Source: Olivibacter sp. SDN3
Lineage (GTDB): Bacteria; Bacteroidota; Bacteroidia; Sphingobacteriales; Sphingobacteriaceae
Length of the DNA stretch: 64,000 bases
NCBI RefSeq assembly: GCF_014334135.1
Contig: NZ_CP060497.1
Location: 806,001-870,000 of the forward strand
Direction of reading: 5' to 3'
Shown here: positions 703-17,101 of the stretch, piece by piece
How the letters are laid out: each line of letters starts with the position of its first letter
Numbering within the stretch: position 1 is the stretch's first letter
Made by a program: the position numbers and the translations under genes
The notes under the pieces: generated by a model
Seen by the model: only the letters and a program-made list of their open reading frames with translations
What the model was told of the DNA's origin: nothing
Database searches by the model: none

Positions 703-739
703 CTACAGATTGATTTATTTAATTTACCATTAGCTAAGC

Positions 740-2125
740 TCACCCCTCTCCTTCTTTCTTCCTAGATGCATACCACTCGCCGAAGGACTGTTTCGGAGGA
801 GAAGGCATCTCGCGCCCTTTGTACCATGGATTCAGTCCGTTATTAACAGCGAAGGGTATGTACCGCAATGTCAACCGACCCAGCTTACCCGCTAACTTAA
901 ACTTCGCAGGCGACGACAATGTAGCCGCCATTAGTTTCATGGCCGCCGTTTTCTTTTTATCGGTATAGCCCGCTTTCACCAATTCCTGTCGCCATTTATA
1001 TAATTGATTATGAATATCTATCTTTACCGGACATACATTACTGCAAGAGCCACATAAGGTAGAAGCGAAGGGTAGATCTGCAAAATCTTTCATATCCAGA
1101 TTGGGTGCTAAAATAGACCCTATCGGACCACTGATGGCATAATGATAACTATGCCCGCCACTTCTACGATAAACCGGGCAAGTATTCATGCAGGCTCCGC
1201 AACGAATGCACTTCAGCGAGTTTCGAAAATCTTCCCTTGCCAGTTGCCTGCTTCTCCCATTATCCACCAATACGATGTGCATCTCCTGACCTTCTCTCGG
1301 ACGTTTAAAGTGACTGGAATAAGTGGTAATCGGCTGTCCTGTGGCGCTTCGGGTTAGCAACCTCAGGAACACGCCTAAATGGGCCCGCTTAGGAATAAGT
1401 TTTTCTATCCCCATACTGGCAATATGAATAGACGACAGGTGTGCGCCCATATCTGCATTTCCTTCATTGGTACATACGACCATCTCGCCCGTTTCCGCTA
1501 CAGCGAAATTTACGCCCGTTAGCGCAGCCCTGCGTGTAAGAAAAGTATCTCTTAAATGCTGCCGAGCGGTTTCCGTAAGGATCTGTGGATCTGACTCTCC
1601 TGCTTCGGTACCTAAATGCTCATGAAATAAATCGCCTATTTCTTCCTTCTTTTTATGAATACAGGGCAGCACGATATGGCTAGGCATCTCTTTAGCCAGC
1701 TGTACAATACGTTCGCCCAGATCGGAATCGATAACTTCTATGCCGCGGTCTGCCAGGTAATCATTCAAATGACATTCTTCTGTAAGCATCGACTTGCTCT
1801 TTACCATCCGATCTATACCATGCTTCTGCAGCAGATGGCACACAATCTCGTTATGTTCAGCTGCATCGGTGGCCCAATGTACCTGTACGCCATTTGCGAT
1901 TGCCTGTTGCTCAAACTCTTCCAAATAGGTTGATAAGTTGGCCAGTGTATGGTGCTTCACTTCCGAGGCTACTTCACGGAGGCTCTCCCATTCTTCCAGG
2001 CCATGCGTAGCACGATCCCGCTTCGTTCTAACGAACCAAAGCGTCTCGTCGTGCCAGTCTACGCGCGCTTCATCGGCATTAAATACATCGGCTAAGTCTG
2101 CATGTCTCTTTGATGTTCCTCGCAT
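740..2125 (-). CDS. lutB: LutB-type iron-sulfur lactate utilization protein
   Basis: A 461-residue LUD domain fused to a ferredoxin-like module. The N-terminal 300 residues form the LUD part. Two cysteine clusters follow: C306, C309, C312 and C316 (CIRCGACMNTCP) and C358, C361 and C365 (CGSCSNVCP), the ligands expected for two [4Fe-4S] clusters. Length and layout match LutB/YkgF. It lies between lutA (42 nt upstream) and lutC (37 nt downstream). Its inferred role is electron transfer in L-lactate oxidation to pyruvate. No truncation or missing ligand was seen. Confidence 0.92.
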   Translation of the reverse strand: MRGTSKRHADLADVFNADEARVDWHDETLWFVRTKRDRATHGLEEWESLREVASEVKHHTLANLSTYLEEFEQQAIANGVQVHWATDAAEHNEIVCHLLQKHGIDRMVKSKSMLTEECHLNDYLADRGIEVIDSDLGERIVQLAKEMPSHIVLPCIHKKKEEIGDLFHEHLGTEAGESDPQILTETARQHLRDTFLTRRAALTGVNFAVAETGEMVVCTNEGNADMGAHLSSIHIASMGIEKLIPKRAHLGVFLRLLTRSATGQPITTYSSHFKRPREGQEMHIVLVDNGRSRQLAREDFRNSLKCIRCGACMNTCPVYRRSGGHSYHYAISGPIGSILAPNLDMKDFADLPFASTLCGSCSNVCPVKIDIHNQLYKWRQELVKAGYTDKKKTAAMKLMAATLSSPAKFKLAGKLGRLTLRYIPFAVNNGLNPWYKGREMPSPPKQSFGEWYASRKKEGEG

Positions 2126-2167
2126 ATTATTCTTAGCTATTCGCTTTAACCTTTAGATCATTTAACA

Positions 2168-2905
2168 TTATATGCTGCTATTTAATATCTCCGCGATATG
2201 GATCACTTTTGTCTTACTTTTAGCTCGCTTTAATACACCTTCCATATGCATGAGGCACGACATATCCGCTCCAGTAATGTATTCGGCATCGTGCCTAAGA
2301 TGATCTGCTACACGATCTTTGCCCATCTTCACCGAAACAGCCTCCTCCGCAACGCAGAAAGTACCTCCAAAACCGCAGCATTCGTCCCCCCTGTCTAAGG
2401 TAACCAGTTCAATGTCTTTAACCATATGGAGCAACTTACCCGGCTTAGAAAACATCGGTGCCGTCAGCTCACTCATCTGTGATAATTTAAGTCCGCGTTG
2501 ACCATGGCAGCTTTGGTGCATCCCCACCTTATATGGGAAGCGTGCCTCCAGCTCCTCCACTTGCAATACATCTGTCAGAAACTCCGTAAGCTCATAAATG
2601 CGTGGGCGGATAGCTACTGCCTGTTGCTTGTTTTTATCAGAGCTCAGGTGCTCTTTCAAATGCAATACACAACTACCCGAGGGTGATACAATATATTCGT
2701 AACCATCAAAATGCCTGATAAAATTCTCGTTGCAGCCTCCTGTCAAATGTTCATAGCCTGAATTGGCCATTGGTTGCCCGCAACAGGTTTGCCCTTCCGG
2801 ATAAACTACCCGAACACCCAGCCTTTCCAACAATTCCAAGCTTGCTTGAGCAACCTGCGGATAAAATTGGTCAACATAGCACGGCACAAATAAAGCAACC
2901 TCCAT
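2168..2905 (-). CDS. lutA: LutA-type (Fe-S)-binding protein, CCG domains
   Basis: A 245-residue protein with the two cysteine-rich CCG domains of LutA/GlpC-like oxidoreductase subunits. The first CCG block is at residues 41-43 (QTCCGQP) and the second at 176-178 (DECCGFGG). Extra cysteines at 133 (HQSCHGQ) and 184 complete the usual patterns. It is the first gene of lutABC and is preceded by a 191-bp intergenic stretch after the phospholipase gene, so the lut genes may have their own promoter there. I saw no convincing promoter box. The inferred role is L-lactate oxidation together with LutB and LutC. Confidence 0.92.
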   Translation of the reverse strand: MEVALFVPCYVDQFYPQVAQASLELLERLGVRVVYPEGQTCCGQPMANSGYEHLTGGCNENFIRHFDGYEYIVSPSGSCVLHLKEHLSSDKNKQQAVAIRPRIYELTEFLTDVLQVEELEARFPYKVGMHQSCHGQRGLKLSQMSELTAPMFSKPGKLLHMVKDIELVTLDRGDECCGFGGTFCVAEEAVSVKMGKDRVADHLRHDAEYITGADMSCLMHMEGVLKRAKSKTKVIHIAEILNSSI

Positions 2906-3096
2906 GTGATATTGTTTATGTTTAGTTTACATTTAGGAACAGCACCTACAAAGTAAGCAAATTCGAAGCCATGATCATTTTACTATCTTACCCTTTTATT
3001 AAGTTATCTTTACCCACCAGATGGCTAGTTTTCCTTTACAAAATTACACGCAAAGTAATCCATTTTAATCAAATAACCATCCTGTGCAGTCCGCTT

Positions 3097-5649
3097 TTAA
3101 ATTACGCGTCCCATAAATGGATCACTTTTACTATGTTTACCGGTTTCCACCCTTCCCGCGTAACGTCTTTCGAAAGTATCTATCCCATCAATGGTGACAG
3201 AAAAGTCGTACCATTGAAAGCTTTTTTCTGTATTAACAGGCAGTGTTAGTTCACCCAAGGCCCCCACTTCTTTCGTAACCACACCATTTCCATAAGCGTG
3301 GTCCTTCACCCTTACACGTATCATCTGCGGTTGTTTATTCTTAATCCTCAGATCGATATTACCAGACAACTGACTTTTCATCGAATTTTTCGTTCTTTGA
3401 TAGACTGCACTGGTTTCTATTAGCGAATCTTCAGTATTTCCTCTTAGTTCCCGAAAAAAGCCGTTAGGCCCGTAAACCCTTAGGTGATAGAGACGATGCT
3501 CAAAACACTCCAAGGGCCAAGCATAAGTTAATTCGTCTCCAGCAGAAACAGCGAAAGACCATACGCTTACGGCATCAAAGGACATCGCTCCCCCACTTCC
3601 TTTCTGCAAATACTTCCCGGGGGCATACACATTAAACGCTGAGCCGAGAGCCTGTTCTCCGAAAGCCCCTTTCTTTGCAGAAAACCGAAGTTCCAGACGG
3701 TCATTTGTAGCAGATAACATTCCTTCAACGGCTAGCTCATAAGCCAAAGCACACGAGTTTCTTATCCCTACTTCCTGTTGAGGTAAAACAGCGGCGTGTA
3801 TGGGGTCATTATTGGCGATACCAATTTCCTCGACGGTCAACGCTTTATAGGTAGGTAAGCTTTTAAATTGTGCATTGTAAATACCTTGTACAAATTGATT
3901 TCGATCTAAGGCTTCGGGAAAAATCATTTTCTCTCCCTTATATGGCCTAAAGGCTGAAGTTAAATCACCGGAAACTGTCCGTCGCCAGCTACTGATATTA
4001 TTTTCTTTTACCTTTTTACCTTTCCGCTGCAGGAAGCTTTCCATGAATCGGATGGTAGAAGTGACGTCACAAACCTCCGAATTCACCCATCCGCCTCTCG
4101 TCCAGGGAGAAGCAATGATTAACGGCACTCGATACCCCAAACCGACAGGACCTTCACGCGTATCACTTTCTTTTCTTTCTCGCCTTTGCTCTTCTTCCAT
4201 GGTTACATATTCATCGGAAGTATCCAGGCCATCAGACACCGCTCCGGCATTAGGGTCGTTAGGCTTGGGTGCCACAAATGGCGGTATATGATCAAAACAA
4301 CCATCATTTTCATCGTAATTGAGTATAAAGATCGTTTTCTTCCATACTTCCGGGTTCTTGGTCAAAATATCCAGTACTTCCGACACATACCAGGCTCCGT
4401 ACCAGGGTGCACTGGGATGATCAGAAAAATTCTGAGGAGCTACCAGCCAACTCACGGTAGGTAATTCACCTTCGTTCACATCCTTTCTAAACTGGTATAA
4501 TACATCGCCTTTAGGCACCCGCATCTGCCGTTCCACGCCTTCCTCGTCCCGATAGCTAAGCTCTTCGGTCTCATGGTAATGAGGGTCGGCAATATTTGTA
4601 GTAAAAGCCCTACGGTGTAGGTTTTGTTCGAAGGTGCTTAACTTTTCAAAATTATCGGGATTATACTTTGCTAGTTCGGCTTTAAATTTCGCCAACTGCG
4701 CTATCTTCTGCTCCAGCCTACCTTTATGTTTCTGCGTTTGACTTGGTTTCAGGCTGGAAATAGTCTTCTTCAATGCGGCAATCTCTTGCGGTAACTCTTC
4801 AAGGCGTTTCACCAGAAACCGGTGATGTCCTTTACTGAAACGTACATGGTACTGGCTGAACCATTCCAAGTTATTATCGGTGAAATTTCCGAGCCACGAT
4901 TCATCCTCTCCCGTTAAAACTGTTTGGACACTTAATTCATTTTGATAGACCCTCCAGCTAATCCCCTGCTCTTCCAATCGCTCAGGGAAGGTCTTCCAAT
5001 TCACTTCACGATTAAAATACACATCCGAATTACGGACATTGGCAATATCCCCCGATCTAGCTTTCAATGTTCCGCTCCAAAAGAACAGTCTATTCGTTGT
5101 TGTACCGGTTAACGATGAGCAGAAATGCTGATCACAGATCGTAAAGGCATCAGCCAAGGCATAATAAAACGGAATATCTTCTCTATTGTAATATCCCAAA
5201 GTAAGCGGCATCTCTTGATAAGCTTTAATACCCGAACGTTTGGCTTCCAACCAGCCATCGTATTTGCCATTGTTACGGGCGTCTACCTGGTTCCCCCATG
5301 AATGAGGTAAAGATTCCATCCAGGTAATCTTACTATTTTTGATATCCATACGAAAAGGGGCATATGTATGCCCCTGGCGGTCGGATTGTAACCAAACTGA
5401 ATTTTTATTGGGTAGCGTTATTGCTCTGGGGTCATTGAAGCCTCTAACGCCTTGCAGCGTTCCGAAACAGTGATCGAAAGAACGGTTTTCCTGCATCAGC
5501 AATACAATATGTTCTGCGTCATAAAATGTACTGCCAGGCGCTGGATTAATCGCTATAGCCTGTTGTATCGATTCCGGCAAGGTTCCCCACAAACCCGCCC
5601 CCCCGGCAAGCATGGCAGCTTTCTTTATAAATTCTCTTCTGTTGTCCAT
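3097..5649 (-). CDS. Phosphocholine-type phospholipase C, Tat-exported
   Basis: An 850-residue member of the bacterial phosphoesterase family that includes the Pseudomonas PlcH/PlcN enzymes. These cleave phosphatidylcholine and related lipids outside the cytoplasm to diacylglycerol and a phospho-alcohol. The N-terminus has a twin-arginine motif (RREFIKK, residues 4-10) and a hydrophobic stretch. The family signature QENRSFDH is at 53-60. The C-terminal 200 or so residues look like the two beta-rich DUF756 modules of the family. It starts 36 nt after the aldehyde dehydrogenase stop, in line with an ethanolamine-type cluster, so it may feed lipid head groups to it. Head-group specificity cannot be read from the sequence. 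Confidence 0.88.
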   Translation of the reverse strand: MDNRREFIKKAAMLAGGAGLWGTLPESIQQAIAINPAPGSTFYDAEHIVLLMQENRSFDHCFGTLQGVRGFNDPRAITLPNKNSVWLQSDRQGHTYAPFRMDIKNSKITWMESLPHSWGNQVDARNNGKYDGWLEAKRSGIKAYQEMPLTLGYYNREDIPFYYALADAFTICDQHFCSSLTGTTTNRLFFWSGTLKARSGDIANVRNSDVYFNREVNWKTFPERLEEQGISWRVYQNELSVQTVLTGEDESWLGNFTDNNLEWFSQYHVRFSKGHHRFLVKRLEELPQEIAALKKTISSLKPSQTQKHKGRLEQKIAQLAKFKAELAKYNPDNFEKLSTFEQNLHRRAFTTNIADPHYHETEELSYRDEEGVERQMRVPKGDVLYQFRKDVNEGELPTVSWLVAPQNFSDHPSAPWYGAWYVSEVLDILTKNPEVWKKTIFILNYDENDGCFDHIPPFVAPKPNDPNAGAVSDGLDTSDEYVTMEEEQRRERKESDTREGPVGLGYRVPLIIASPWTRGGWVNSEVCDVTSTIRFMESFLQRKGKKVKENNISSWRRTVSGDLTSAFRPYKGEKMIFPEALDRNQFVQGIYNAQFKSLPTYKALTVEEIGIANNDPIHAAVLPQQEVGIRNSCALAYELAVEGMLSATNDRLELRFSAKKGAFGEQALGSAFNVYAPGKYLQKGSGGAMSFDAVSVWSFAVSAGDELTYAWPLECFEHRLYHLRVYGPNGFFRELRGNTEDSLIETSAVYQRTKNSMKSQLSGNIDLRIKNKQPQMIRVRVKDHAYGNGVVTKEVGALGELTLPVNTEKSFQWYDFSVTIDGIDTFERRYAGRVETGKHSKSDPFMGRVI

Positions 5650-5685
5650 TTTTTATTCGTTAAGCCGTTGAAACGTTCAGCTGTT

Positions 5686-7053
5686 TCACTGTCCTATCAA
5701 ATGCCAGGCTTTAGGTTTCGTAAACGCTCGTATTCCTTGATGAGACAAGGTAACACCTAGTCCAGAATGCTGGCGACCGCTCCATGGCAAAGCTGCACTT
5801 ACTCGATCACAGCAGTTCCAATAAGCTGTGCCAATATTGATTTTCGTTAAAATGGAAACTGCCCTCATCTGTTGGTCGGCGTATACACTTGCTGTTAATC
5901 CATAGTCCGTATCCTGCATCAATGCGACGGCTTCCTCATCGTTTCTCACCTTCATAATACCTATGATCGGGCCGAAGCTCTCTTCACGCATAAGCGCCAT
6001 ATCGTGGTTCACGTTCACCAGCACTGTTGGTTCAAAATAGTAACCCCGTCTGTCCGCCCGTCTCCCGCCAAGTAGTAATGTGGCCCCCTTAGCCAAAGCG
6101 TCTGCCACTTGATCTTCCAGCAAGAGAAGTTGCGCACTACGTGTTAACGGTCCGAAATACACATCTTCCATTATCGGGTCTCCCAGCTTCCAACGTTTAA
6201 CCTGCGCCACGAAAGCCTCCACATAGGCATCGTATACCGCTTCGTGCACATAGATCCGTTCGACCGCACAGCAACTCTGTCCATTATTATAAAAAGCGCC
6301 ATCGGCGGTAGCTTCGGCTACCGCTTTCACATCGGCTAGATCATCGGTAATATACAGCGGATCCTTACCTCCCATCTCTAGCTGGCAAGGAACCATTTTA
6401 CTTGCTACTTGTTTATAAATAGCTTTACCCGTCTTATACGATCCGGTGAAGTAGTATCCATCAAAGTCGAGATCCAACAACGCTTTTCCTACATCGGCAC
6501 CACCAATGGCCACCTGCAAGACATTATCAGGTAATCCTGCCCTTTTTAATAATCGATCAATCTGTAAACCAGTATTAGTAGCAAATTCAGAAGGTTTATA
6601 CAATACCGTATTCCCAGCCAGCAATGCCGGAATAAAAACGTTTACACCCACCAAATAAGGGTAATTCCACGCCGAGATATTGCAGATGGTTCCCAATGGT
6701 TCGTAAGTGATCGTTTCTTCCAAATGGGGTCTAGATCGCATCTGTTCGGGCGAGAGGTATTTTTGCACATTTTCCATCATCCAGGAAATACGGGAAATGG
6801 CTCCGTTAATCTCGTTTCGTGCCTGTTGAATAGGTTTGCCCGTTTCGGCCGTTAATATGCCAGCCAGCGATTCAATTTCTTCTTTTAGCCCCTCCACGAA
6901 CTTTGCTATAACTATCATCCGCTCAGCCAGTAGTTTTTGGCTCCAATCAGCCCGGGCGGCCTGCAAGGTATTGTACTTCTCCAACAAGCGCTCAGGATGA
7001 TCATCCACTAACTCGATGATAGTTTCTGTTGATGTAGGATTAATGATCTTCAT
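5686..7053 (-). CDS. NAD(P)-dependent aldehyde dehydrogenase
   Basis: A 455-residue aldehyde dehydrogenase superfamily enzyme. The general-base glutamate is at 226 (LEMGGK) and the nucleophilic cysteine at 261 (NNGQSCC). The length is slightly below the usual 480-500 because the N-terminus is short, as in succinate-semialdehyde-like groups. It lies 50 nt after a class I amidotransferase-like hydrolase gene and 36 nt before a phospholipase C gene on the same strand. In this context I infer that it oxidises the aldehyde of a gamma-glutamylated amino alcohol to the acid, for example to gamma-glutamylglycine. The substrate is inference; the enzyme class is secure. Confidence 0.9.
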   Translation of the reverse strand: MKIINPTSTETIIELVDDHPERLLEKYNTLQAARADWSQKLLAERMIVIAKFVEGLKEEIESLAGILTAETGKPIQQARNEINGAISRISWMMENVQKYLSPEQMRSRPHLEETITYEPLGTICNISAWNYPYLVGVNVFIPALLAGNTVLYKPSEFATNTGLQIDRLLKRAGLPDNVLQVAIGGADVGKALLDLDFDGYYFTGSYKTGKAIYKQVASKMVPCQLEMGGKDPLYITDDLADVKAVAEATADGAFYNNGQSCCAVERIYVHEAVYDAYVEAFVAQVKRWKLGDPIMEDVYFGPLTRSAQLLLLEDQVADALAKGATLLLGGRRADRRGYYFEPTVLVNVNHDMALMREESFGPIIGIMKVRNDEEAVALMQDTDYGLTASVYADQQMRAVSILTKINIGTAYWNCCDRVSAALPWSGRQHSGLGVTLSHQGIRAFTKPKAWHLIGQ

Positions 7054-7103
7054 ATCTATAATTTTATTCTGTAAAGCTATGTGCTGATTTTAACTCATGC
7101 TGT

Positions 7104-7871
7104 TCACATCAATCGCACTGCACCGATAAAGGCTTCTCCAATATTTTTAACAAACACACTTTCCATATCTTCCATCCTTTCGGGATGCCATTGCACTAAA
7201 CACAGAAAAGGACCGTTAGTGGGATCCACGCGTTCAATTGCTTCCACCACCCCATCTGCCGACAGCGCAGACACCAGCAAGCCCCTTCCTATACGATTGG
7301 CACTCTGATGATGTAAACTGTTCACCATACCACTCTTGGCACCTGTTATTTCATATAACAAGGAGTTCTCATTTATTTGTATCTCATGGTAAGGAAGCTT
7401 GCCATTAGGTAATCTGGAGTGGTTAAATTTACCCCAGACAGGCAGGTCTGGTATTAACGTTCCCCCATAAAAAATGTTAATTAACTGTAGTCCGCGACAG
7501 ACACCTAATATAGGCAACTGTTTCTCATGGGCCTGCGTTAAAAGCTTCAGTTCAAAATCATCTCGTTGTTCATCAAAATCACATGCCTCACAATAGCTCA
7601 GGTACCCCTCTTTCCCGTAGTGTTTCGGGTATACATCTTCTCCTCCCGTAAACACCAAACCTCGGCATTTAGCCACTTCATGTAAATTATCTAAAGCATA
7701 TCCCAAACGTACAATCTCTACCGATAGATCTAAACCTTTTATCCATTGCGCGTACAGCTCATACATTCTGCCGTCAGTCATCCCTATAATTAATTTCTCT
7801 TGCATCGCTTCGCTATTCGTTGCCGGTTGTTCGTTCTCAGTTTTTACGCTATTTCCATACTCAACAAACAT
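7104..7871 (-). CDS. Class I glutamine amidotransferase-like gamma-glutamyl hydrolase (PuuD family)
   Basis: A 255-residue class I amidotransferase-fold protein of the peptidase C26/PuuD group, which hydrolyses gamma-glutamyl amide bonds. The nucleophile elbow GVCRG places the catalytic cysteine at 125, and the WHPER motif supplies H229 and E231. PuuD releases GABA from gamma-glutamyl-GABA. Here the neighbours suggest release of glycine from gamma-glutamylglycine instead, which is inference. The start is uncertain: an internal Met at residue 23 (position 7805) fits the family start better than the first Met. It is 18 nt downstream of the iron alcohol dehydrogenase gene, so co-transcription is likely. 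Confidence 0.85.
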   Translation of the reverse strand: MFVEYGNSVKTENEQPATNSEAMQEKLIIGMTDGRMYELYAQWIKGLDLSVEIVRLGYALDNLHEVAKCRGLVFTGGEDVYPKHYGKEGYLSYCEACDFDEQRDDFELKLLTQAHEKQLPILGVCRGLQLINIFYGGTLIPDLPVWGKFNHSRLPNGKLPYHEIQINENSLLYEITGAKSGMVNSLHHQSANRIGRGLLVSALSADGVVEAIERVDPTNGPFLCLVQWHPERMEDMESVFVKNIGEAFIGAVRLM

Positions 7872-7889
7872 TATTATCCCATTGTCTAC

Positions 7890-9026
7890 TTATAGAGCTT
7901 TCTCATATAATTCCCTAAAATCTTCCCTACTTACCGGTTTGGGGTTATTGGGGTGAGCAAAATCAGCTATTGCCATATCGGCCAGGGTTTCTATATGCGT
8001 CTCATTCACTCCTATGTCCCGTAGGTGATGTGGAATACCAATGCGGTTGTTCAAATCTAATAGATAAGCGACTACTGCTTCCCCGGTTTCTGCACGTAAT
8101 TCCAATGCCTGTGCAATATACCTGAATTTACTTTCGTTTCCTGCAATATTATAGGCCATACCGTAAGGAATATTCACAGCATTTGCTAAACCATGATGTG
8201 TATCTAGGAGTGACGACAGCGGATGCGCCAATGAATGAACCACTCCCAACCCTTTCTGAAAGGCAATAGCTCCCATCATAGAAGCCAGCAACATCTTACT
8301 GCGCGACTCCTCGTCTGGATTTAGCACCGCTCTTGCGAGCGACTCACTGATCAAACGAATTCCTTCCAGAGCAATTCCGTCACAAATCGGGTTGTAGTTC
8401 TTGGCTAGATAGGCTTCCATGTTATGTGTTAACGCATCCATTCCCGTAGCTGCGGTAATCGCGGGGGGAAGTTCCATCGTCAACAGCGGATCAGCGAAAA
8501 CCACTTTTGCCATTAACTTCGGCGAGAAAAGAATGCGTTTCTGGTGTGTTTCATCATCCGCAATAATAGCGCTTCGCCCCACCTCACTTCCTGTCCCCGC
8601 AGTGGTAGGGATCGCAATAAAATGAGGCACTTCATTCGTCACATAGACCTCACCACCTATCAGATCATCGTATTTGAACAGGTCTTCTCTATGGTTAATG
8701 CGCAGCGTAATTGCTCGTGCGATATCGAGCGCTGCACCTCCGCCAATGCCCACAACACAATCACGATCGGTGTCATCCCATACCGTTGTCCCACTATATA
8801 CATCCGATTTAACTGGGTTTTTATGAATGTCAGCAAAAACAACTATACTGATCCCTTTCGCTTCCAAACGACTGCATATCCCTTTAAAAAAAGGCAATTG
8901 AGCAATCACCGGATCTGTTACCACCAGGGGGCGTGCCAACGCATGCCCCACAAGGTAATCTGCCAGTTCGTTAACCGCCCCACAACCAAATCGTATCGTA
9001 GTGGGAATATTGAATTGATGAATCAT
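7890..9026 (-). CDS. Iron-containing alcohol dehydrogenase
   Basis: A 378-residue group III (FucO-like) alcohol dehydrogenase. The nucleotide-binding GIGGGAALD is at residues 93-101. The metal ligands expected from FucO fall at D197, H201, H264 and H278. The length is normal and the ligands are intact. It heads the downstream half of the amine cluster, just after the 213-bp repeat element. A polyamine pathway would carry a flavin amine oxidase (PuuB) at this step; an alcohol dehydrogenase instead points to an amino-alcohol substrate such as ethanolamine. The proposed substrate is gamma-glutamylethanolamide, which is inference from context. Confidence 0.9.
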   Translation of the reverse strand: MIHQFNIPTTIRFGCGAVNELADYLVGHALARPLVVTDPVIAQLPFFKGICSRLEAKGISIVVFADIHKNPVKSDVYSGTTVWDDTDRDCVVGIGGGAALDIARAITLRINHREDLFKYDDLIGGEVYVTNEVPHFIAIPTTAGTGSEVGRSAIIADDETHQKRILFSPKLMAKVVFADPLLTMELPPAITAATGMDALTHNMEAYLAKNYNPICDGIALEGIRLISESLARAVLNPDEESRSKMLLASMMGAIAFQKGLGVVHSLAHPLSSLLDTHHGLANAVNIPYGMAYNIAGNESKFRYIAQALELRAETGEAVVAYLLDLNNRIGIPHHLRDIGVNETHIETLADMAIADFAHPNNPKPVSREDFRELYEKAL

Positions 9027-9130
9027 GTTTTCTTATTTTACAGGTTGCACTACCGTTATTAAGGGTCTTTTGCCTGCCTTTTACCTCGAAAATCATTTCT
9101 TGCTTCTGTTCAGCTTCTTTAATTTCCTTA

Positions 9131-9343
9131 CAGCCTGTTTAAAATTTATCTAATAAATCTTTTATGACTCTTTTTGGCTACGACTTTGTTAAATTTCTCG
9201 CAATAGGCCACCAGCTATTGCTGCAAAACCGAACGAAGTGAGTTCATGAACACCCATGGAAGCAAACATGGTGTGAATAATTTGCCTTGTCTCGCTCAAA
9301 AATAACCTATAAAATTTTTTATAATACAAATTTAAACAGGCTC
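9131..9343. mobile_element. MITE-like element with 12-bp terminal inverted repeats
   Basis: The 317-bp gap between the ligase and alcohol dehydrogenase genes is mostly one palindromic unit. AGCCTGTTTAAA at 9132-9143 is matched exactly by its reverse complement at 9331-9342. A trinucleotide TTA flanks both ends (9128-9130 and 9344-9346), as a target duplication would, and the right copy is the stop codon of the ligase gene. Inside are smaller inverted repeats, including CAATAG/CTATTG and the palindrome GTTCATGAAC. On the minus strand a short open frame with no family match ends in TAA before the left repeat. No transposase is present, so movement would need help from elsewhere. Confidence 0.55.
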
Positions 9344-10702
9344 TTAAATAATTTCAAAATACCTTTTCAGTTCCCAATCGGTTACTGCCTTAGCAAACTG
9401 TTGCCATTCCCACTCACGGGTTCGGCAAAAGTGATCGACAAAAGTTTCTCCAAAAAGCTCCTTCGCAACGGTCGACTGCCGCATCTGTGCGGTAGCTTCC
9501 AACAAGTTTCCAGGCATGATACCGTTACTATAATCGGTATAACCATTCCCAAGAGTAGCGGGCTGTTCCAAATGCAGGCCCTTTTTTATTCCATATAGGC
9601 CGGCGGCAAGACAGGCGGCTATGGCCAAGTACGGGTTGGTATCAGAGCCAACAACCCTGGTTTCCAATCGCGAAGACTTTTCACTACCCACCAGCACCCG
9701 AAGCGCCACCGTTCGGTTATCCATCCCCCAGGTCAAGGTGGTAGGTGCCCACGCACCTTCTACCAAACGCTTATAACTGTTAATGGTAGGGGCTAACATG
9801 GGCAATATGTATGGTAAGCAATAAAGCTGACCGGCGATATACTGCTTCATCAGCGCACTCATTTTTTGCTTTTCGTCTCTATCATAAAACACGTTTTTCC
9901 GGGTCTCCATATTCCACAGACTTTGATGCACATGTCCGCTGCAGCCTGGCAGCTGCTCATTCCACTTAGCCATGAAAGAAGCCATCAATCCATGTTTATA
10001 TGCAATCTCTTTCACTGCAGTTTTGAACAATGTAGCCCTATCCGCGGCTTCCAGTGCATCACTATAAACGATGGCTGCTTCATATACACCAGGACCTGTT
10101 TCCGTATGTAGCCCTTCCAGCGGCACATTAAACCGTCCCAACAGATCAAATAAATCACTTATAAAATCGTTTTTCAACGTACTTCTTAAAATAGAATAAC
10201 CGAACATGCCGGGTGTCATAGGCTGGGGAGCCTGGTATTTCTTTTGCTGCAAACTGTCGGGTGTTTCGGCAAAATTAAACCATTCAAATTCCTGCGAAAA
10301 GAAGGGTTCGAAACCAAGCTGTCGGCTTTCATGAATTACTTTCTTTAACAGTTGACGCGGGCAAACCGGCGATGGCGTTCCATCTGCAGCTGAAAATTCG
10401 CCTAAAAAGAACGGTACATCCTGTTCCCATGGTATTTTTCTAAACGTATTCAGGTCTAGCTTGAGCGGCATATCAGGATATCCGGTATGCCAGCCGGTAA
10501 ATGGAGTATTTTCATAAGCCAGATCATTACTGTCCCAACCAAAAACCACGTCACAGAAGCCCAAGTTGTCTTTTAGGCTAGCATTAAACTTCTCTACTGA
10601 CAGGTATTTTCCTCGTAAAATGCCATCGATATCCGCTGCCGCAAGCTTTACTTTTCCTGAGGGATGCTGCTTGATATAGGTTTCTATTTCTTGTATGGTC
10701 AT
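9344..10702 (-). CDS. Glutamine-synthetase-like gamma-glutamyl amide ligase (PuuA/GlnA4-like)
   Basis: A 452-residue member of the glutamine synthetase superfamily. Metal and glutamate site residues are in place: E138 and E140 (QEFEW), E201 and E208 (TGPGVYE) and H257 (GHVHQS). A later WGMDNRT motif is typical of PuuA/GlnA4-like ligases, which join glutamate to an amine instead of ammonia. It overlaps the permease gene by 4 nt, so import and gamma-glutamylation are translationally coupled. With the alcohol dehydrogenase, aldehyde dehydrogenase and amidase next door, I infer ethanolamine as acceptor. Putrescine or isopropylamine-type substrates are alternatives. Its stop codon abuts the MITE-like element. 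Confidence 0.85.
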   Translation of the reverse strand: MTIQEIETYIKQHPSGKVKLAAADIDGILRGKYLSVEKFNASLKDNLGFCDVVFGWDSNDLAYENTPFTGWHTGYPDMPLKLDLNTFRKIPWEQDVPFFLGEFSAADGTPSPVCPRQLLKKVIHESRQLGFEPFFSQEFEWFNFAETPDSLQQKKYQAPQPMTPGMFGYSILRSTLKNDFISDLFDLLGRFNVPLEGLHTETGPGVYEAAIVYSDALEAADRATLFKTAVKEIAYKHGLMASFMAKWNEQLPGCSGHVHQSLWNMETRKNVFYDRDEKQKMSALMKQYIAGQLYCLPYILPMLAPTINSYKRLVEGAWAPTTLTWGMDNRTVALRVLVGSEKSSRLETRVVGSDTNPYLAIAACLAAGLYGIKKGLHLEQPATLGNGYTDYSNGIMPGNLLEATAQMRQSTVAKELFGETFVDHFCRTREWEWQQFAKAVTDWELKRYFEII

Positions 10703-12003
10703 CTCTTAAATACTTTAAATAAACAATAGGATAAAAAAAGAATCAGCAGGTAAATTAAACCAACGCCCCAATTATAAACAAACATGGCTACCAGCGATAG
10801 GATACCGATGACCAAAACCGTAATTGGAAACAGCGGAAAAAAAGGCACACGAAAGGGTCGGTCCAGGCCTGGCTCTACTTTCCGTAACCGGATAAGCGCC
10901 ACCATTGCTATCACATAGAGCGTGAGCGCACCGAAGACAGAAAGTGTGATAATTTCGCCCGTTCTACCTGAAAAAAGCGCGAGGAGCCCGACCAACATAT
11001 TACCCAACAGGGCGTATGCCGGTGTACGGAATTTTGAGGAGATTTTCCCAAACATACCTGGAAAATTATGCGCCTTTCCCATTTCATAGGTAGAGCGCCC
11101 TGCGGCCAATATCAAGCCATGAAACGAGGCTACCAAACCAAACAAGCCAACAGTAATCAATAAGTGATACATCAGGTGATTATCGCCCGTTACGATGGAT
11201 AACGCAAGCGGTAACGGAGAGTCTGAAGTCTCTCCTCCTATACCATCTCGATAAACAACGGCTTCCCACCCTGCCACGCCTATAGAAGAGGTAAACACCA
11301 ATATACAAAGCATTGCCAGCGTGAATATAGCCCAACCAAAACCTTTTTGAATATCGCGTTGCGGGTTTTTGGTTTCTTCTGCCACATTGGCTATACCTTC
11401 TATGCCCAAAAAGAACCAGATCGCAAAAGGGATAGCCGCAAATGCCCCTCCCCATCCATTGGGAAACGCGTTGTGAACAAGGTTGCTTGCTTCAAAATGA
11501 GGAACGGTAATTCCTACAAACAGCAATAGTTCTCCCACCGCTAACACCGTAATCACCATTTCAAATATTGCTGCGGCCTTTACGCCGATGATATTCAAAC
11601 CTGTAAATAAGAGATAAGCTATAACTGCACTGGTAATGATGGGTACATCAGGGAAAAAAGCATTAAAATAAGCGCCGATTGCAAAAGCTATAGCCGGTGG
11701 CGCAAAAACGAATTCAACCGTTTGGGCAATTCCCGAGATGAAGGCTATGTCTTTACCCAATACACGACCTGCATAATCGAATACGCCGCCGGCTTTCGGT
11801 ATGGCACAGGCCAGCTCCGTATAGCTGAAGGTAAAGGTCACGTACATGATCATGACAACCACCGTTGCCATTCCCATACCGAGGGTACCTCCTTTTTCCA
11901 GTCCGAGGTTCCAACCAAAATACATACCGGAGATCACATACCCCACCCCAAGTGCCCACAAAGCAAAGGGGGTGAGTGTTTTTTTTAATTTAACAGCACT
12001 CAT
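10699..12003 (-). CDS. Amino acid/amine permease, ethanolamine permease type
   Basis: A 434-residue APC-superfamily permease with about 12 hydrophobic segments along its length. The N-terminal region (GYVISGMYFGWN, then TELACAIPKAGG) resembles the ethanolamine permease (Eat) subfamily more than general amino acid permeases. It is the first gene of the amine cluster and ends inside the start of the ligase gene with a 4-nt overlap. Its inferred job is inward transport of ethanolamine or a similar small amine across the inner membrane. Subfamily assignment comes from recalled family patterns and would need a tree to confirm. The permease class itself is secure. Confidence 0.85.
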   Translation of the reverse strand: MSAVKLKKTLTPFALWALGVGYVISGMYFGWNLGLEKGGTLGMGMATVVVMIMYVTFTFSYTELACAIPKAGGVFDYAGRVLGKDIAFISGIAQTVEFVFAPPAIAFAIGAYFNAFFPDVPIITSAVIAYLLFTGLNIIGVKAAAIFEMVITVLAVGELLLFVGITVPHFEASNLVHNAFPNGWGGAFAAIPFAIWFFLGIEGIANVAEETKNPQRDIQKGFGWAIFTLAMLCILVFTSSIGVAGWEAVVYRDGIGGETSDSPLPLALSIVTGDNHLMYHLLITVGLFGLVASFHGLILAAGRSTYEMGKAHNFPGMFGKISSKFRTPAYALLGNMLVGLLALFSGRTGEIITLSVFGALTLYVIAMVALIRLRKVEPGLDRPFRVPFFPLFPITVLVIGILSLVAMFVYNWGVGLIYLLILFLSYCLFKVFKR

Positions 12004-12095
12004 TCATTTGTTGGTTTTAATTTACAATAATCCTATTCCCCAACAGTGTAATTATTATAAATCCGGCTAGTCATTTTTTGATCAGTTAAATATAA

Positions 12096-12125
12096 CAGAA
12101 AAACCCTTTAGTTGGATTTTTTCTG
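12096..12125. terminator. Bidirectional stem-loop terminator
   Basis: CAGAAAAACC pairs with GGATTTTTTCTG across a short loop, allowing one bulged base, with A- and T-rich arms on both sides. It sits between the susD remnant, transcribed toward it on the minus strand, and the permease start at 12003. It would stop read-through from the scar region into the amine operon. Confidence 0.5.
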
Positions 12126-12148
12126 ACAATGAATAGCGCTCCATAACA

Positions 12149-12355
12149 CTATTTCAGCAACCACACTTCCTGATTTACATTATCGTTTCCTCCAAACTGC
12201 CGTTGCAGGGCCTCATTCAGATTCTCCATGTTATAGTTTAATTCATTGCTGGGGTAAAGCCAGCGCTTCGGAAACTGCGTAGTGGGCGTATTTAAATTAG
12301 TATTTGCGTTTAATAGGAATTGAGGGTAACCGGTACGCCTGTTTTCAAACCAAGA
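12149..12355 (-). pseudogene. C-terminal remnant of a SusD/RagB-type lipoprotein
   Basis: On the minus strand 68 codons plus a stop read as the tail of a SusD-like glycan-binding outer-membrane lipoprotein: SWFENRRTGYPQFLL, then RWLYPSNELNYN, then ALQRQFGGND, ending in WLLK. SusD C-termini commonly carry this tyrosine- and asparagine-rich block. There is no start codon, no N-terminal domain and no SusC partner nearby. It joins out of frame to a metallophosphoesterase fragment at about 12345-12360. It fills most of the gap between 12004 and 12344. I read it as the residue of a deleted polysaccharide-utilization locus. Confidence 0.75.
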
Positions 12356-12737
12356 TTAGTTCATAAGGTTCAAAAGAAGTTATTTCTTTAGAGACTACAC
12401 GATATTTATAAGTTGTAGCTGCCTTAAGATTTTTAAGACGTATGCGATTAATTCTCAGATAAGCCTCCACCATACCATCCTGTTCCTCCTGTGCTTTCTC
12501 GCTAAGCTCTCCTTCCCCATATTCCACCCAGCTATAAGCGTCCTTTGCCGTAATAAACACCACGTCAACGCTATTAGGGCCCAGTGCCTGCAAATAAGGA
12601 GGCGTGAGTAAACGATGTTCTTCCCTTTTTGTTACGGCAGCGGTATTCGCTTCCAATGGTGTAACGTGTAAAGCTGTTAAAGCCGATACCGCAGTTAACT
12701 GACCTAAAAATTTTCTACGCTGATTGGTTTTTTCCAT
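12345..12737 (-). pseudogene. Truncated Tat-exported metallophosphoesterase (N-terminal 120 residues)
   Basis: A 130-codon frame that begins like an exported purple-acid-phosphatase-type protein. It has a twin-arginine motif (QRRKFLGQL, residues 6-14), a hydrophobic stretch, then a fibronectin-like N-terminal domain (TPPYLQALGPNSVDV, later ATTYKYRVVS). It breaks off at FEPYEL, just where the family would enter the phosphoesterase domain, and runs into a susD 3' end. The catalytic metal-binding domain is entirely absent, so it cannot act as a phosphatase. A short exported peptide might still be made. The family call rests on the N-terminal pattern only. Confidence 0.7.
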
Positions 12738-12832
12738 GATCCGATTATTTGATTAGTAGCTAAGAGGAGTTCAATATTAACTTTATTAAGTGTCAATTGC
12801 AATGTTGGAAACAACGCAATCGGTTGTTTAAA

Positions 12833-12864
12833 TTGTTTATAGTGAAATAAAGTCATTAATTTTA
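12833..12864 (+). promoter_or_regulatory. Bacteroidota-type promoter of pncA
   Basis: TTG at 12833-12835 and TAATTTTA at 12857-12864 are 21 bp apart, close to the Bacteroidota TTG...TAnnTTTG layout. The last G is replaced by A. The pncA ATG follows 4 nt later, so the transcript would have almost no leader. Confidence 0.45.
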
Positions 12865-12868
12865 CAGG

Positions 12869-13465
12869 ATGCGAGCATTAATTATTGTGGATGTACAGAA
12901 CGATTTTTTACCCGGCGGCTCATTGGCGGTACCAAATGGAAATGAAGTGATCGACGTGATCAATGAACTACAAGCGCAGTACAGCTTGGTTGTAGCCACC
13001 CAAGATTGGCATCCCAGGCGTCATCAGAGTTTTGCTTCTGCTCATCCCCGAAAAAAACCGTTCGAACAGATTACCTTACATGGGCTCAAGCAAGTACTAT
13101 GGCCAGATCATTGTGTACAAGAAAGCCATGGAGCAGCTTTCACGGCAGAACTAAAAATGGCTGCTGTAGAAGCCATTTTTAGAAAAGGAATGGACGTAAC
13201 GATTGACAGTTATAGTGGCTTTTTCGATAACGGAAGAAAGAAAGCAACCGGAATGGTTGATTTTTTAAAAGGACGAGGCGTTACCGAAGTAGATGTATGT
13301 GGTTTAGCTGCCGATTACTGCGTATATTTCACGGCCAATGACGCCCTCGATCTGGGATTTAAAGCACGCATGCTCGACTTCGCTACCCGCCCTATTGATC
13401 TAGCTAATTACGAAGCTATTAAAATTGCATTTGCAGCTAAAGGAGGAGAGGTACTTACTGATTGA
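12869..13465 (+). CDS. pncA: Nicotinamidase
   Basis: A 198-residue isochorismatase-fold nicotinamidase, which hydrolyses nicotinamide to nicotinate for NAD salvage in the cytoplasm. The N-terminal VDVQNDFLPGG contains the catalytic aspartate, TQDWHP contains the metal-site histidine, and GLAADYCV carries the nucleophilic cysteine near residue 150. Length and start match PncA. It stands alone on the plus strand between minus-strand genes. Its stop is only 14 nt from the stop of the convergent glutaminyl cyclase gene. A Bacteroidota promoter-like pair lies directly upstream. No anomaly was seen. Confidence 0.93.
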   Translation: MRALIIVDVQNDFLPGGSLAVPNGNEVIDVINELQAQYSLVVATQDWHPRRHQSFASAHPRKKPFEQITLHGLKQVLWPDHCVQESHGAAFTAELKMAAVEAIFRKGMDVTIDSYSGFFDNGRKKATGMVDFLKGRGVTEVDVCGLAADYCVYFTANDALDLGFKARMLDFATRPIDLANYEAIKIAFAAKGGEVLTD

Positions 13466-13479
13466 GTGAACAAAACATA

Positions 13480-14532
13480 CTACCGCTCCAACATCTTAAT
13501 TTCAAATAGCTTGTCCCAATTCTTTCCGGTCACATAAAGATGTTTGCCCTGATGATCGTAAGCGATACCGTTGAGAACATTGGTATCTGTTGTTACATCT
13601 TTTTGGGGCAATAAACCAATCAGGTTTAGTTCTGCCTCCACTTGGCCGGTTTCCGGATCAATTACTACGATAACATCAGAATAGTATATGTTTGCATAAA
13701 CTTTCCCATCAATATACTCCAATTCATTAAGGTTATCTACAGGCCCTTTATGATTGTACACTTCTACGTAGCCCTCTTCCCGGTAATTTTCCTTATTTAA
13801 AAAGTATAGCCGGTTGCTGCCATCGGATTTAATCAGGCGCTTACCGTCATAACAGATGCCCCAACCTTCTTTGCTGGATTGATAGGGAAACTCACTTTCT
13901 TTATCAAAAGTATTTTTGTTGTAGACAAAACCTACGCCTTCTTGCCAGGTCAGCTGTACAATTTTATCGTCTACGATGGTCATTCCCTCACCAAAATACT
14001 TATTAGGCAGGTCATATTGCTGCACCACTTTCCCTGTTTTCAGCTCTACCTTTCGGAGGGTAGATTGTCCACGTTGCCCGGTACTTTCATAAAGGTAGCC
14101 ATCGTGGAATTCCAGCCCCTGTGTATAGGCATGGGCGTCATGCGGGTAAGTATTGACTACACTAAAGCTATACTGTTCTGGCACTGCCGAAGCAACAACA
14201 ACAATATTTGTATTTATCCGCTCTGATTCACCCTCTTTGTAAACATTGGCCGTAATAAGCTTACTTCCCATCGTTAACTCAGCTGTTTGCAGCCAAACGG
14301 CAGCACTGTCATGCACCGTTTTATAATGTTTGTCATTCAACTCATAGACAATAGAATCAATGTCAATTTCTTCTGGTATATTGATGGCTAATGACACACT
14401 GTCGCCCCTATTTATCAGCGTCCCAGACTCGATAGATCGAAAATGAACGGATCTAGATTTTTTCCCTCCCCCGTTGTTACAGGCTGCTACACTGCTTAGG
14501 GCCGCTAAACAAAACAGCAAAAATTTATTCAT
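13480..14532 (-). CDS. Glutaminyl-peptide cyclotransferase, lipoprotein
   Basis: A 350-residue beta-propeller glutamine cyclotransferase, which converts N-terminal glutamine of proteins to pyroglutamate. The start is set at the internal Met at 14532, because it is followed by a clear lipoprotein signal (hydrophobic run, then SVAAC with the lipidated cysteine at residue 18). An upstream Met at 14565 would put a non-signal extension in front of it. An N-terminal Ig-like segment precedes the propeller, whose family motifs include YTQGLEF and LNELEYI. In Bacteroidota, exported proteins often begin with glutamine after signal cleavage, which fits a periplasmic role. Confidence 0.87.
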   Translation of the reverse strand: MNKFLLFCLAALSSVAACNNGGGKKSRSVHFRSIESGTLINRGDSVSLAINIPEEIDIDSIVYELNDKHYKTVHDSAAVWLQTAELTMGSKLITANVYKEGESERINTNIVVVASAVPEQYSFSVVNTYPHDAHAYTQGLEFHDGYLYESTGQRGQSTLRKVELKTGKVVQQYDLPNKYFGEGMTIVDDKIVQLTWQEGVGFVYNKNTFDKESEFPYQSSKEGWGICYDGKRLIKSDGSNRLYFLNKENYREEGYVEVYNHKGPVDNLNELEYIDGKVYANIYYSDVIVVIDPETGQVEAELNLIGLLPQKDVTTDTNVLNGIAYDHQGKHLYVTGKNWDKLFEIKMLER

Positions 14533-14535
14533 GCA

Positions 14536-14543
14536 CAAATATA
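14536..14543 (-). promoter_or_regulatory. TAnnTTTG box of the glutaminyl cyclase gene
   Basis: On the minus strand TATATTTG lies only 3 nt before the start codon chosen at 14532. This supports that start and suggests a leaderless or nearly leaderless transcript. No clear TTG element was identified upstream. Confidence 0.45.
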
Positions 14544-14744
14544 TTATATGTAAGACATTTGACATAATTTAATAGGTATTAGGTGTTACGTATTATCTAA
14601 GCATACCTTAGCCAAAACATATCTTTTTTATAAAACAAAGATAAACACAAAATTATTATGCCTTGCAAGCTATCTGAAATCGACCGGAACCGATGTTAAA
14701 AATAAACAGCCATTGATTTGAATTTAGGTCAACAACATTGAAAA

Positions 14745-15113
14745 CTAAGAATACCTCGGCCAGAAGGCGTCTTTTATGTGCCTGATATTATATTGATCAC
14801 TTGGATTAGCGAAAATAGAGACGACATCAAACCTAATTTCGCCTTCGTAATGATGTTGTTTAATATAGATGGTGGCGGCCTGAGAAAGTTTACGCTGTTT
14901 CTGCCAATTTACCGATTCATAGGGTAAGCCGAAACGCCCATCGGTGCGTGTTTTAACTTCAACAAAAACCAATGTATCCTGATCTCGCATAACGATATCC
15001 ACCTCTAGGTGTTTATATCGCCAGTTTTTGTGGAGCAACAGGTATCCGCATTCAAGTAAGTAATTTTGGGCAGCCGTTTCTCCCGATATACCTGTTAATA
15101 GATGTTTAGCCAT
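14745..15113 (-). CDS. YraN/UPF0102 family putative endonuclease
   Basis: A 122-residue protein of the YraN (UPF0102) family, a restriction-endonuclease-like fold of uncertain function. The motif order matches the family: GETAAQNYL at the start, the predicted active-site block EVDIV then VFVEVKTR around residues 37-55, and a later KLSQAA. The length is normal. It lies 11 nt after the dnaG stop codon on the same strand, so the two are probably co-transcribed. A nuclease role is a fold-based expectation and has not been settled for the family. Confidence 0.88.
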   Translation of the reverse strand: MAKHLLTGISGETAAQNYLLECGYLLLHKNWRYKHLEVDIVMRDQDTLVFVEVKTRTDGRFGLPYESVNWQKQRKLSQAATIYIKQHHYEGEIRFDVVSIFANPSDQYNIRHIKDAFWPRYS

Positions 15114-15124
15114 AGCATACCAAA

Positions 15125-17101
15125 CTATTTTACGATGACAGTTCCCAAATAACTGGTGATTTCTTTCTCCATCATCTTCAATTTCTGATATTTAACCATC
15201 AGCATTTCGAGGTTTTCGGCATTGGTCTCCTGTCGTAATTCCTCACGGACGTCTTGCATATTTTGCTCCACTTTACGTTTTTTTATCCTGTAAAGCGCTC
15301 CCAAGACTGCATTTTTTAAATTATCTGTTTCCTGTGCCACGTATATCTTACGCTTCTCATCGTTCCAATTAGGACTCAAACTGTAGGGAGACGCTAAAAG
15401 TGTGATGGCCAGATCGGCAATTTCACGATCTTTATGGGTAATAAAATAACGGTCGTTGGGTAACTCCTCTCTTTCCATAAAAGTTAAATAGACCGTTACG
15501 ACTTTTTGGCAAAGGGCATCCGTAAACGTTACATCCTGCAAACCTGCCAATAGCACGAAAGCGATAGGATAATCTTGCTCCCATTTTGCAGGAACGTGCC
15601 CATAATTAAGTAGCAAACGTATTATTTCGCGCTCTTGGAGAGCGATCGACTGTGATTTGTTAACTTTAGGAGAAAAAGTTGTCTCCAAAGAAGGAGCCAC
15701 CCCATCCGCGGGGTCCATAAACAAATCAGGAGGGGGTTCATTCCCAGCAAATGGAGAAGAAGCCTTTTTTTCAGGAAGCTGTTGATCTTTTCGTGAAGCT
15801 TTCAGTCGAAGTTTATTGAGTTCGGAGATCAATAGACGTTCTTCTATATCTAACAGATTGCTACACTCCCTAATGAAAACGGAAGCTTTTATATCGTCAG
15901 GTATTAAAGCTATACTTTCCACTACATCATGGATAACTTCAGCGCGTTTTACCGGGTCAGTACCCGCATCTTTTAATAACACATCGGTCTTATAAAAGAT
16001 AAAATCTTTGCTATTGCCTTCAATATATTGTTTAAAGGCATCAGCACCGTTTTTCATGGCAAAAGAGTCGGGGTCATCACCATCTGGAAAAAGAAGTACC
16101 TTTACATTCATTCCTTCTTCCAACAACATGTCCAAGCCTCGCAACGAAGCTTTAATGCCTGCTGCATCTCCATCAAAAAGAATGGTTACATTTTTGGTAT
16201 AACGTGCTATTAACCGGATCTGACCACTGGTTAACGAAGTTCCTGACGATGCCACTACATTTTCAACACCGGCCTGATGCATGGATATTACATCAGCGTA
16301 TCCTTCCACAAGGTAACAGCTGTCGGCAACCGTAATGGCTTTCTTCGCAAAGAATAAACCGTATAATACATCCGACTTATGATAGATAATACTCTCCGGA
16401 GAGTTAACATACTTTGGTACTTTCTTGTCGGTTTTTAAAGTACGCCCGCCAAAGCCCAATACCCTTCCTGTAAGATTATGGATAGGAAACATCACCCTTC
16501 CCCGAAAACGATCATAGGATTTACCATCATCTTTCCGAACAATCAACCCTGTTTCCTGCAGGAAATCTTCGTCATGCCCAGCTGCAATCGCTTTCCCATG
16601 CAGCGCTTCCCAAGCTTCCGGAGAATAGCCGAGTTCAAACTTCTTGATAATATCTTCGCGGTATCCACGTTCCCTGAAGTAACTGAGGCCGATAGCTCTC
16701 CCGTCGTCAGTATCCCATAAACAATCCCGAAAAAATTTTGAAGCCCAATTGGTCACTACCAATAAACTCTCTCGATGATCTGTTACGGCAGCCTGCTCGG
16801 GTGATACAGCGGTCTCTTCTACTTCAATATTATACTTTTGCGCTAAATAACGTAATGCTTCCGGATAAGCATATTTTTCCAGCTCCATTACAAAACGAAC
16901 GGCATCGCCGCCGGCACCGCAACCAAAACACTTATAAATTCCTTTGCTTACCGATACGTGGAAAGAGGGTGTTTTTTCATTATGAAAAGGACACAATCCG
17001 ATCATACTTGTGCCACGCTTTCTTAGGTCAACGAAGTCCCCCACTACCTCTTCAATACGGGCAGCATCAAGAATCTTATCAATCGTTTCCTGTTTAATCA
17101 T
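15125..17101 (-). CDS. dnaG: DNA primase
   Basis: A 658-residue bacterial primase that makes RNA primers at the replication fork. The N-terminal CHC2 zinc finger has C37, H40, C58 and C61. The TOPRIM catalytic core follows, with VEGYADV and LFDGDAAG near residues 265-315. A C-terminal helicase-interaction region closes the protein. The length is normal. The start at 17101 fits because the zinc finger falls at its usual position and a promoter-like box lies just upstream. It is followed by yraN after 11 nt. Confidence 0.95.
   Translation of the reverse strand: MIKQETIDKILDAARIEEVVGDFVDLRKRGTSMIGLCPFHNEKTPSFHVSVSKGIYKCFGCGAGGDAVRFVMELEKYAYPEALRYLAQKYNIEVEETAVSPEQAAVTDHRESLLVVTNWASKFFRDCLWDTDDGRAIGLSYFRERGYREDIIKKFELGYSPEAWEALHGKAIAAGHDEDFLQETGLIVRKDDGKSYDRFRGRVMFPIHNLTGRVLGFGGRTLKTDKKVPKYVNSPESIIYHKSDVLYGLFFAKKAITVADSCYLVEGYADVISMHQAGVENVVASSGTSLTSGQIRLIARYTKNVTILFDGDAAGIKASLRGLDMLLEEGMNVKVLLFPDGDDPDSFAMKNGADAFKQYIEGNSKDFIFYKTDVLLKDAGTDPVKRAEVIHDVVESIALIPDDIKASVFIRECSNLLDIEERLLISELNKLRLKASRKDQQLPEKKASSPFAGNEPPPDLFMDPADGVAPSLETTFSPKVNKSQSIALQEREIIRLLLNYGHVPAKWEQDYPIAFVLLAGLQDVTFTDALCQKVVTVYLTFMEREELPNDRYFITHKDREIADLAITLLASPYSLSPNWNDEKRKIYVAQETDNLKNAVLGALYRIKKRKVEQNMQDVREELRQETNAENLEMLMVKYQKLKMMEKEITSYLGTVIVK

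Follow-up and report, generated by a model that had tools for sequence, protein, structure and literature searches.

How might a bacterium live on ethanolamine, one of the commonest membrane head groups, when a profile search of its genome gives no match to EutB (PF06751)? The question is raised by a locus in Olivibacter sp. SDN3 (NZ_CP060497.1, positions 806,001 to 870,000), a stretch of 64,000 nucleotides that is here called the window; all coordinates are window positions. It contains five adjacent genes, encoding a permease, a glutamine synthetase (GS)-like ligase, an iron-containing alcohol dehydrogenase (Fe-ADH), a C26-type hydrolase and an aldehyde dehydrogenase (ALDH). These probably form a catabolic operon that uses ethanolamine as a source of nitrogen and carbon. 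We infer the substrate and every catalytic step, and the genomic context supports the ethanolamine reading well.

An open reading frame (ORF) check finds all five genes intact on the minus strand, exactly where a preliminary description of this DNA had placed them; that description listed them in the order of the pathway, not that of the genes. In the direction of transcription the order is permease, ligase, Fe-ADH, hydrolase, ALDH. The permease (10699-12003) is of the Eat type of the APC family and is predicted to take up ethanolamine. It scores 412.8 bits against TIGR00908, the ethanolamine permease model, with a cut-off of 381.75, which bears out its earlier naming. Its gene overlaps by 4 bp with that of the ligase (9344-10702), a PF00120 protein predicted to be an ethanolamine gamma-glutamylase. 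The Fe-ADH (7890-9026; PF00465/PF25137), a predicted gamma-glutamylethanolamide dehydrogenase, is 38-40% identical to the Paracoccus, Legionella and Aminobacter copies, and its Asp197, His201, His264 and His278, which by comparison with FucO we take to be metal ligands, are invariant in 16 of 16 sequences. The C26-type amidotransferase hydrolase (PF07722), predicted to cleave gamma-glutamylglycine, has a listed ORF of 7104-7871; aligned relatives begin at residue 23 of this ORF, so that the coding sequence is likely to be 7104-7805, with the real start probably at 7805. It is 33% identical to E. coli PuuD, and Cys125, His229 and Glu231 are invariant in all seven sequences compared, PuuD included. 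The ALDH (5686-7053; PF00171), the predicted producer of gamma-glutamylglycine, has Glu226 and Cys261, invariant in six of six sequences including E. coli PuuC. The window therefore encodes together the ligase, alcohol-oxidising dehydrogenase, ALDH and gamma-glutamyl hydrolase by which membership of the pathway was judged. A search of positions 1-16000 with Rfam at gathering thresholds gave no match.

In the route that we propose, the permease would import ethanolamine, and the ligase would use ATP to join its amine to the gamma-carboxyl group of glutamate. The Fe-ADH would oxidise the gamma-glutamylethanolamide to the aldehyde, which the ALDH would convert to gamma-glutamylglycine, and the hydrolase would release glutamate, which is recycled, and glycine, which could be used by the glycine cleavage system. 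Glycine decarboxylase is present in the genome. Because glutamylation would block the amine and keep the aldehyde tethered, neither B12 nor a microcompartment would be needed. This chemistry was proposed in the preliminary description and remains the best reading of the locus; its view of the ligase as GlnA4-like and of the alcohol dehydrogenase as a new sign has not survived, as discussed below. The absence of an ethanolamine ammonia-lyase, which it also noted, holds genome-wide as far as EutB is concerned, and the Eut pathway is accordingly disfavoured.

Contextual evidence comes from the partners of the permease, which was followed through two samples: 120 related genomes, that of Olivibacter sp. 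SDN3 included (permease E-value 1e-60), and 395 genomes from across the phylum (1e-90). Among the relatives the permease occurs in 23, an Fe-ADH orthologue (59% identity or more) in 18, EutB in 5 and the ligase (56% or more) in 33. For these counts G010, G023, G043 and G056 (35-39% identity) were dropped as paralogues from the 22 genomes matched by the Fe-ADH, and seven very weak matches and G073 (35%) were excluded from the 41 matched by the ligase. All 18 genomes with the Fe-ADH carry the ligase and 17 carry the permease; in the exception, G095, the contig ends at the ligase. In each of the five EutB genomes the permease and EutB are no more than 0.8 kb apart, and none of the five has an Fe-ADH orthologue. 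In G073, the last relative with the permease, it adjoins the 35%-identical ligase and TRAP genes. Fisher tests of co-occurrence were run among the relatives, and these ignore relatedness.

The phylum sample has the permease in 19 genomes: eight with an Fe-ADH orthologue, eight with EutB, two with an operon comprising a ligase of the published Eto/GlnA4 type, a short-chain dehydrogenase (SDR), an ALDH and an amidotransferase, and one (G300) with none of these partners within the 14.5 kb read. In all eight Fe-ADH genomes the dehydrogenase gene is on the same strand as the permease, with a gap as long as one ligase gene between them; the ligase itself was read in three of these loci (the window, L170 and L171). 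Of the eight EutB genomes, seven have the EutB and permease genes at most 0.8 kb apart, and one has EutB on another contig. The Fe-ADH search matched 9 of the 395 genomes; G289 (43% identity, with an Eto-type ligase and an ALDH) was left out of the orthologue count. Pooling the two samples, which share four genomes, gives 38 distinct Bacteroidota genomes with the permease, accompanied by the Fe-ADH orthologue in 24, EutB in 10, an adjacent Eto/GlnA4-type ligase in 3 and no partner in 1. No genome of either sample has both the Fe-ADH orthologue and EutB (0 of 18 among the relatives, 0 of 8 in the phylum sample).

Six of seven permeases tested pass the TIGR00908 cut-off, including both EutB-linked ones and that of G073; the Microvirga permease of L092 falls below it (344 against 381.75). 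In a permease tree containing 31 of the 33 sources tried, Eto-partnered and window-type permeases form one clade, apart from the EutB-linked ones (100/99). Three Bacteroidota loci (L064, L167 and L168) pair a permease gene from the window-type clade with an adjacent gene for an Eto/GlnA4-clade ligase. Given these pairings, one permease clade appears to work both with the published ligase type and with that of the window, and the permease says more than the ligase about ethanolamine as the substrate, both points being drawn from gene context.

The five-gene order recurs in other Sphingobacteriaceae and beyond the family. Half of the 18 relatives with the Fe-ADH orthologue (9, Olivibacter sp. 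SDN3 among them) have it whole and uninterrupted, and it is therefore more than a chance arrangement. In the other nine, all five genes lie on one strand with inserts (one genome), are cut by contig ends (five), or are rearranged or scattered (three). The order is also present in both operon-bearing genomes of the phylum sample that were read out, and all five genes stand in order in Limnovirga soli, Sphingobacterium sp. HMA12, Membranihabitans marinus and a Chitinophagaceae metagenome-assembled genome (MAG; L082). At least 80 named loci were fetched by means of the Fe-ADH, and are hence selected for it. Among the 80 listed, a ligase is found in 48 (21 window-type, 27 Eto-type), while neither type lies in the stretch for 32, L109 and L123 with their ligase matches of 30% and 35% being counted among these. 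The full set of RpiR, hydrolase, TRAP, ligase, ALDH and ADH genes is present in 14 of the 80. The ADH, hydrolase and ALDH occur with no ligase nearby in L083 and L085, and Legionella lytica has a window-type ligase, an ALDH and an Fe-ADH together with an amidotransferase-like gene. A Roseobacter-like Eto operon is also found on L132, a 6.6-kb contig from a Flavobacteriaceae MAG; this contig is possibly misbinned.

The ligase scores below the cut-offs of all the NCBIfam models that it matched (TIGR00653, TIGR03105, NF045547 and NF007006), and its relatives are annotated as glutamine synthetase. It was aligned with GlnA, whose residue numbers and roles are used here as we understand them. In this alignment it keeps the GlnA metal and glutamate residues that were checked, and the flap Glu327 is replaced by Trp318. 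Trp occupies the flap position in all 57 sequences of the ligase's wider clade and in both IpuC sequences; elsewhere the position is Phe in 15 of 16 sequences of the Eto group and in both GlnA4 stand-ins, and Tyr in both PuuA sequences. GS-like enzymes acting on organic amines have lost the flap Glu and Asp50, according to the available part of PMC11335346, where the flap residue is numbered 357.

A first ligase tree contained 80 of 103 ligases and two PDB stretches; the final tree has 62 rows, made up of 59 of the first 82 and three that were added. In the final tree one clade (100/99) unites the Eto ligases, PDB 5dm3 and two actinobacterial stand-ins for GlnA4 that were picked by gene order; the window ligase falls outside this clade. 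We take PDB 5dm3 to be the Chromohalobacter salexigens ligase; the primary Chromohalobacter paper is Vetting et al. 2015, cited here by way of PMC10132767 and PMC9397018. The clade of the window ligase has IpuC as its nearest named neighbour, in a sister position only (91/86), and the IpuC clade is itself separate at 100/100. The ligase groups with neither PuuA, which forms a long branch, nor GlnA. It is 39-41% identical to IpuC, 34-38% to the Eto type, 33-34% to the GlnA4 stand-ins and 33% to PuuA. Its earlier assignment as PuuA/GlnA4-like is thus disfavoured by this tree. The Bacteroidota operon clade also takes in two betaproteobacterial ligases (94/79), which an earlier quick tree had placed elsewhere.

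The ligases of a sister clade within the family stand in a conserved cluster of another kind. All 15 of its loci encode a HAD-like protein and a 345-residue protein that has no Pfam match, 13 also a type II glutamine synthetase (GSII), and 10 a gamma-glutamylcyclotransferase (GGACT). Only GGACT was profile-tested, the names kinase-like, HAD and GSII being our own reading. The loci are L051:7721-12702, L043, L045, L046, L048, L049, L050, L053, L055, L056, L058, L060, L061, L062 and L066.

Several observations weigh against ethanolamine as the substrate. The amine site of the ligase has Trp318, Phe167 and His199, where the Eto type has mostly Phe, Glu/Gln/Val and Lys; the nearest named relative of its separate clade, IpuC, is annotated for isopropylamine; and in some loci of the wider clade the ligase is accompanied by an aminotransferase or a GMC oxidoreductase, with no Fe-ADH. 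These points would suit a route with the same four-enzyme logic but directed mainly at one or more other primary amino alcohols (3-aminopropanol, serinol, alaninol or N-methylethanolamine), with ethanolamine as a minor substrate. We consider this unlikely, in view of a permease that exceeds the ethanolamine cut-off and whose relatives lie beside EutB or Eto/GlnA4-type ligases. The permease evidence is itself qualified: identity between the window permease and the EutB-linked ones is only 42-46%, the nesting of Eto-partnered permeases among window-type ones is weakly supported (92/62), and 4 of the 12 EutB genomes in the phylum sample have no permease at the cut-off. On the ligase side, the Eto/GlnA4 clade was identified by gene order (Paracoccus, Nonomuraea and Embleya) and by PDB 5dm3 as the presumed C. 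salexigens ligase, the assayed ligases not being among the tree rows, and the 15 family genomes of the sister clade lack the operon, five of them carrying EutB. Finally, in two betaproteobacterial MAG loci (L090:3435-14059 and L138) the ligase-ADH-hydrolase-ALDH genes directly follow PhnW, a 2-aminoethylphosphonate transaminase. L090 also contains a HAD-IB phosphatase gene and what we read as phosphonate ABC transporter genes.

The Puu pathway follows the same overall scheme, with a ligase, an oxidation step, an ALDH and a C26 hydrolase, and the window hydrolase resembles PuuD at the identity given above. A putrescine or polyamine route is nevertheless very improbable: the ligase lies far from PuuA in the tree (the long branch of PuuA being borne in mind), an Fe-ADH stands where PuuB would be expected, the closest PuuB-like protein of the genome shows 26% identity and is encoded at a distance from the operon, and the permease scores as an ethanolamine permease. 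We give hardly any credence to the ligase being an ordinary ammonia-using glutamine synthetase in a chance neighbourhood. Its PF00120 membership and the annotation of its relatives are what such an enzyme would have, and at the position of GlnA Asp50 the window ligase has Glu64 and most of the clade has Asp, the alignment being unsure at this point; as this position stays acidic, not every ammonia-site residue is lost. However, the flap Glu is replaced throughout the wider clade, another GS-family gene (734-codon open frame) is present in the genome, and the gene order and co-occurrence are conserved. Neither a grouping with putrescine or ammonia enzymes in the 62-row tree nor a close PuuB-like oxidase elsewhere in the genome, both of which the preliminary description had named as contrary evidence, was found.

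The neighbours of the operon may bear on the supply of ethanolamine. A sixth co-directional gene, 36 bp after the ALDH, encodes a phosphocholine-type phospholipase C (3097-5649, minus strand; TIGR03396, 768 bits against a cut-off of 580). It lies beside the operon in six of the nine operon-carrying family genomes, on the opposite side in G032; the neighbourhood was read in G000, G001, G002, G022 and G032, and taken for G003 from coordinates on one contig. The gene is present in 36 of the 120 genomes, with a second copy elsewhere in that of Olivibacter sp. SDN3. From its linkage, the enzyme may help to supply head groups; the supply of phosphoethanolamine is a guess, because the family name says phosphocholine. 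On the other side of the operon, a 130-residue ORF (12345-12737, minus strand) matches PF16656 only, the N-terminal domain of a purple acid phosphatase, and is probably a phosphatase remnant. Many stops separate it from the permease in the one frame read, and in G022 the gene immediately upstream of the permease encodes an acid phosphatase. Downstream of the operon, window 91-2905 holds a LutABC-like lactate utilisation set, which is also present near the operon in G004 and in G001, where only part of it is in view.

A wider interpretation is offered tentatively; it is quite possible, although we stop short of calling it probable. The Bacteroidota may have recruited a separate ligase clade for the gamma-glutamyl route, with its own amine pocket and Trp flap, interchangeable with the Eto/GlnA4 type behind the same permease clade. 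Tied to phospholipase C and phosphatase, this route would lead from membrane phospholipid to glycine without B12 and would take the place of EutBC in one lineage after another. In the open-licence literature that we found, the B12-free route has so far been described for Proteobacteria and Streptomyces, and titles and abstract openings in open-licence PMC literature, a partial coverage and hence a weak negative, gave no description of the operon in Bacteroidota. A distinct Bacteroidota version, with EutB never accompanying the operon in the sampled genomes, would predict B12-free ethanolamine users. It would also imply that four components of the pathway (transporter, ligase, alcohol dehydrogenase and hydrolase) can each be replaced, and that related ligases now named glutamine synthetase need a corrected annotation.

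How does the locus compare with known systems? The available part of PMC10132767 describes a complete ethanolamine gamma-glutamylation operon in Phaeobacter sp. MED193, including proteomics and a measured affinity for the transporter; it also points to C. salexigens and Agrobacterium. Table 2 of PMC9397018 lists PF00120, an iron-dependent PF00465, PF00171 and PF05013 for the C. salexigens ethanolamine route. Plasmid 1 of Paracoccus denitrificans has genes for RpiR, N-formylglutamate amidohydrolase, TRAP components, ligase, ALDH and an annotated Fe-ADH, in the Phaeobacter order. The Fe-ADH is therefore a known partner in this pathway and not a novelty, whereas the preliminary description took its presence in place of PuuB as the key sign. 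As far as these sources go, the window shares with the Phaeobacter, Chromohalobacter and Agrobacterium C58 operons the PF00120 ligase, PF00465 dehydrogenase, PF00171 ALDH, a gamma-glutamylglycine hydrolase and the same predicted chemistry. It differs from these EtoX-type operons in having an APC Eat permease instead of the TRAP transporter EtoVWX, a PF07722 hydrolase instead of PF05013, a ligase outside the Eto/GlnA4 clade, and an adjoining phospholipase C.

The other systems are more distant. Streptomyces coelicolor GlnA4 makes gamma-glutamylethanolamide, and its cluster likewise has a GS-like ligase, an ALDH and a glutamine amidotransferase, with a putative permease in some species (available part of PMC6529630); it has an SDR in place of the Fe-ADH, and its ligase belongs to the other clade, as judged with Nonomuraea and Embleya stand-ins for SCO1613. 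The E. coli Puu pathway shares gamma-glutamyl tethering, the ALDH and the C26 hydrolase, but has a diamine substrate, a PuuB oxidase and a ligase distant from that of the window. IpuC, from the isopropylamine clusters of Paenarthrobacter and Microbacterium plasmids, is the nearest named ligase and has Trp at the flap position, but its cluster contains a P450 and an SDR, and its clade is separate. EutBC draws on the same food source, and in relatives EutB has a permease of this family as its neighbour, but EutBC is a B12-dependent ethanolamine ammonia-lyase, for whose EutB the Olivibacter genome has no match. The pathway is thus already known, and what is different in this lineage is the ligase clade, the Eat permease, the C26 hydrolase and the neighbouring phospholipase C.

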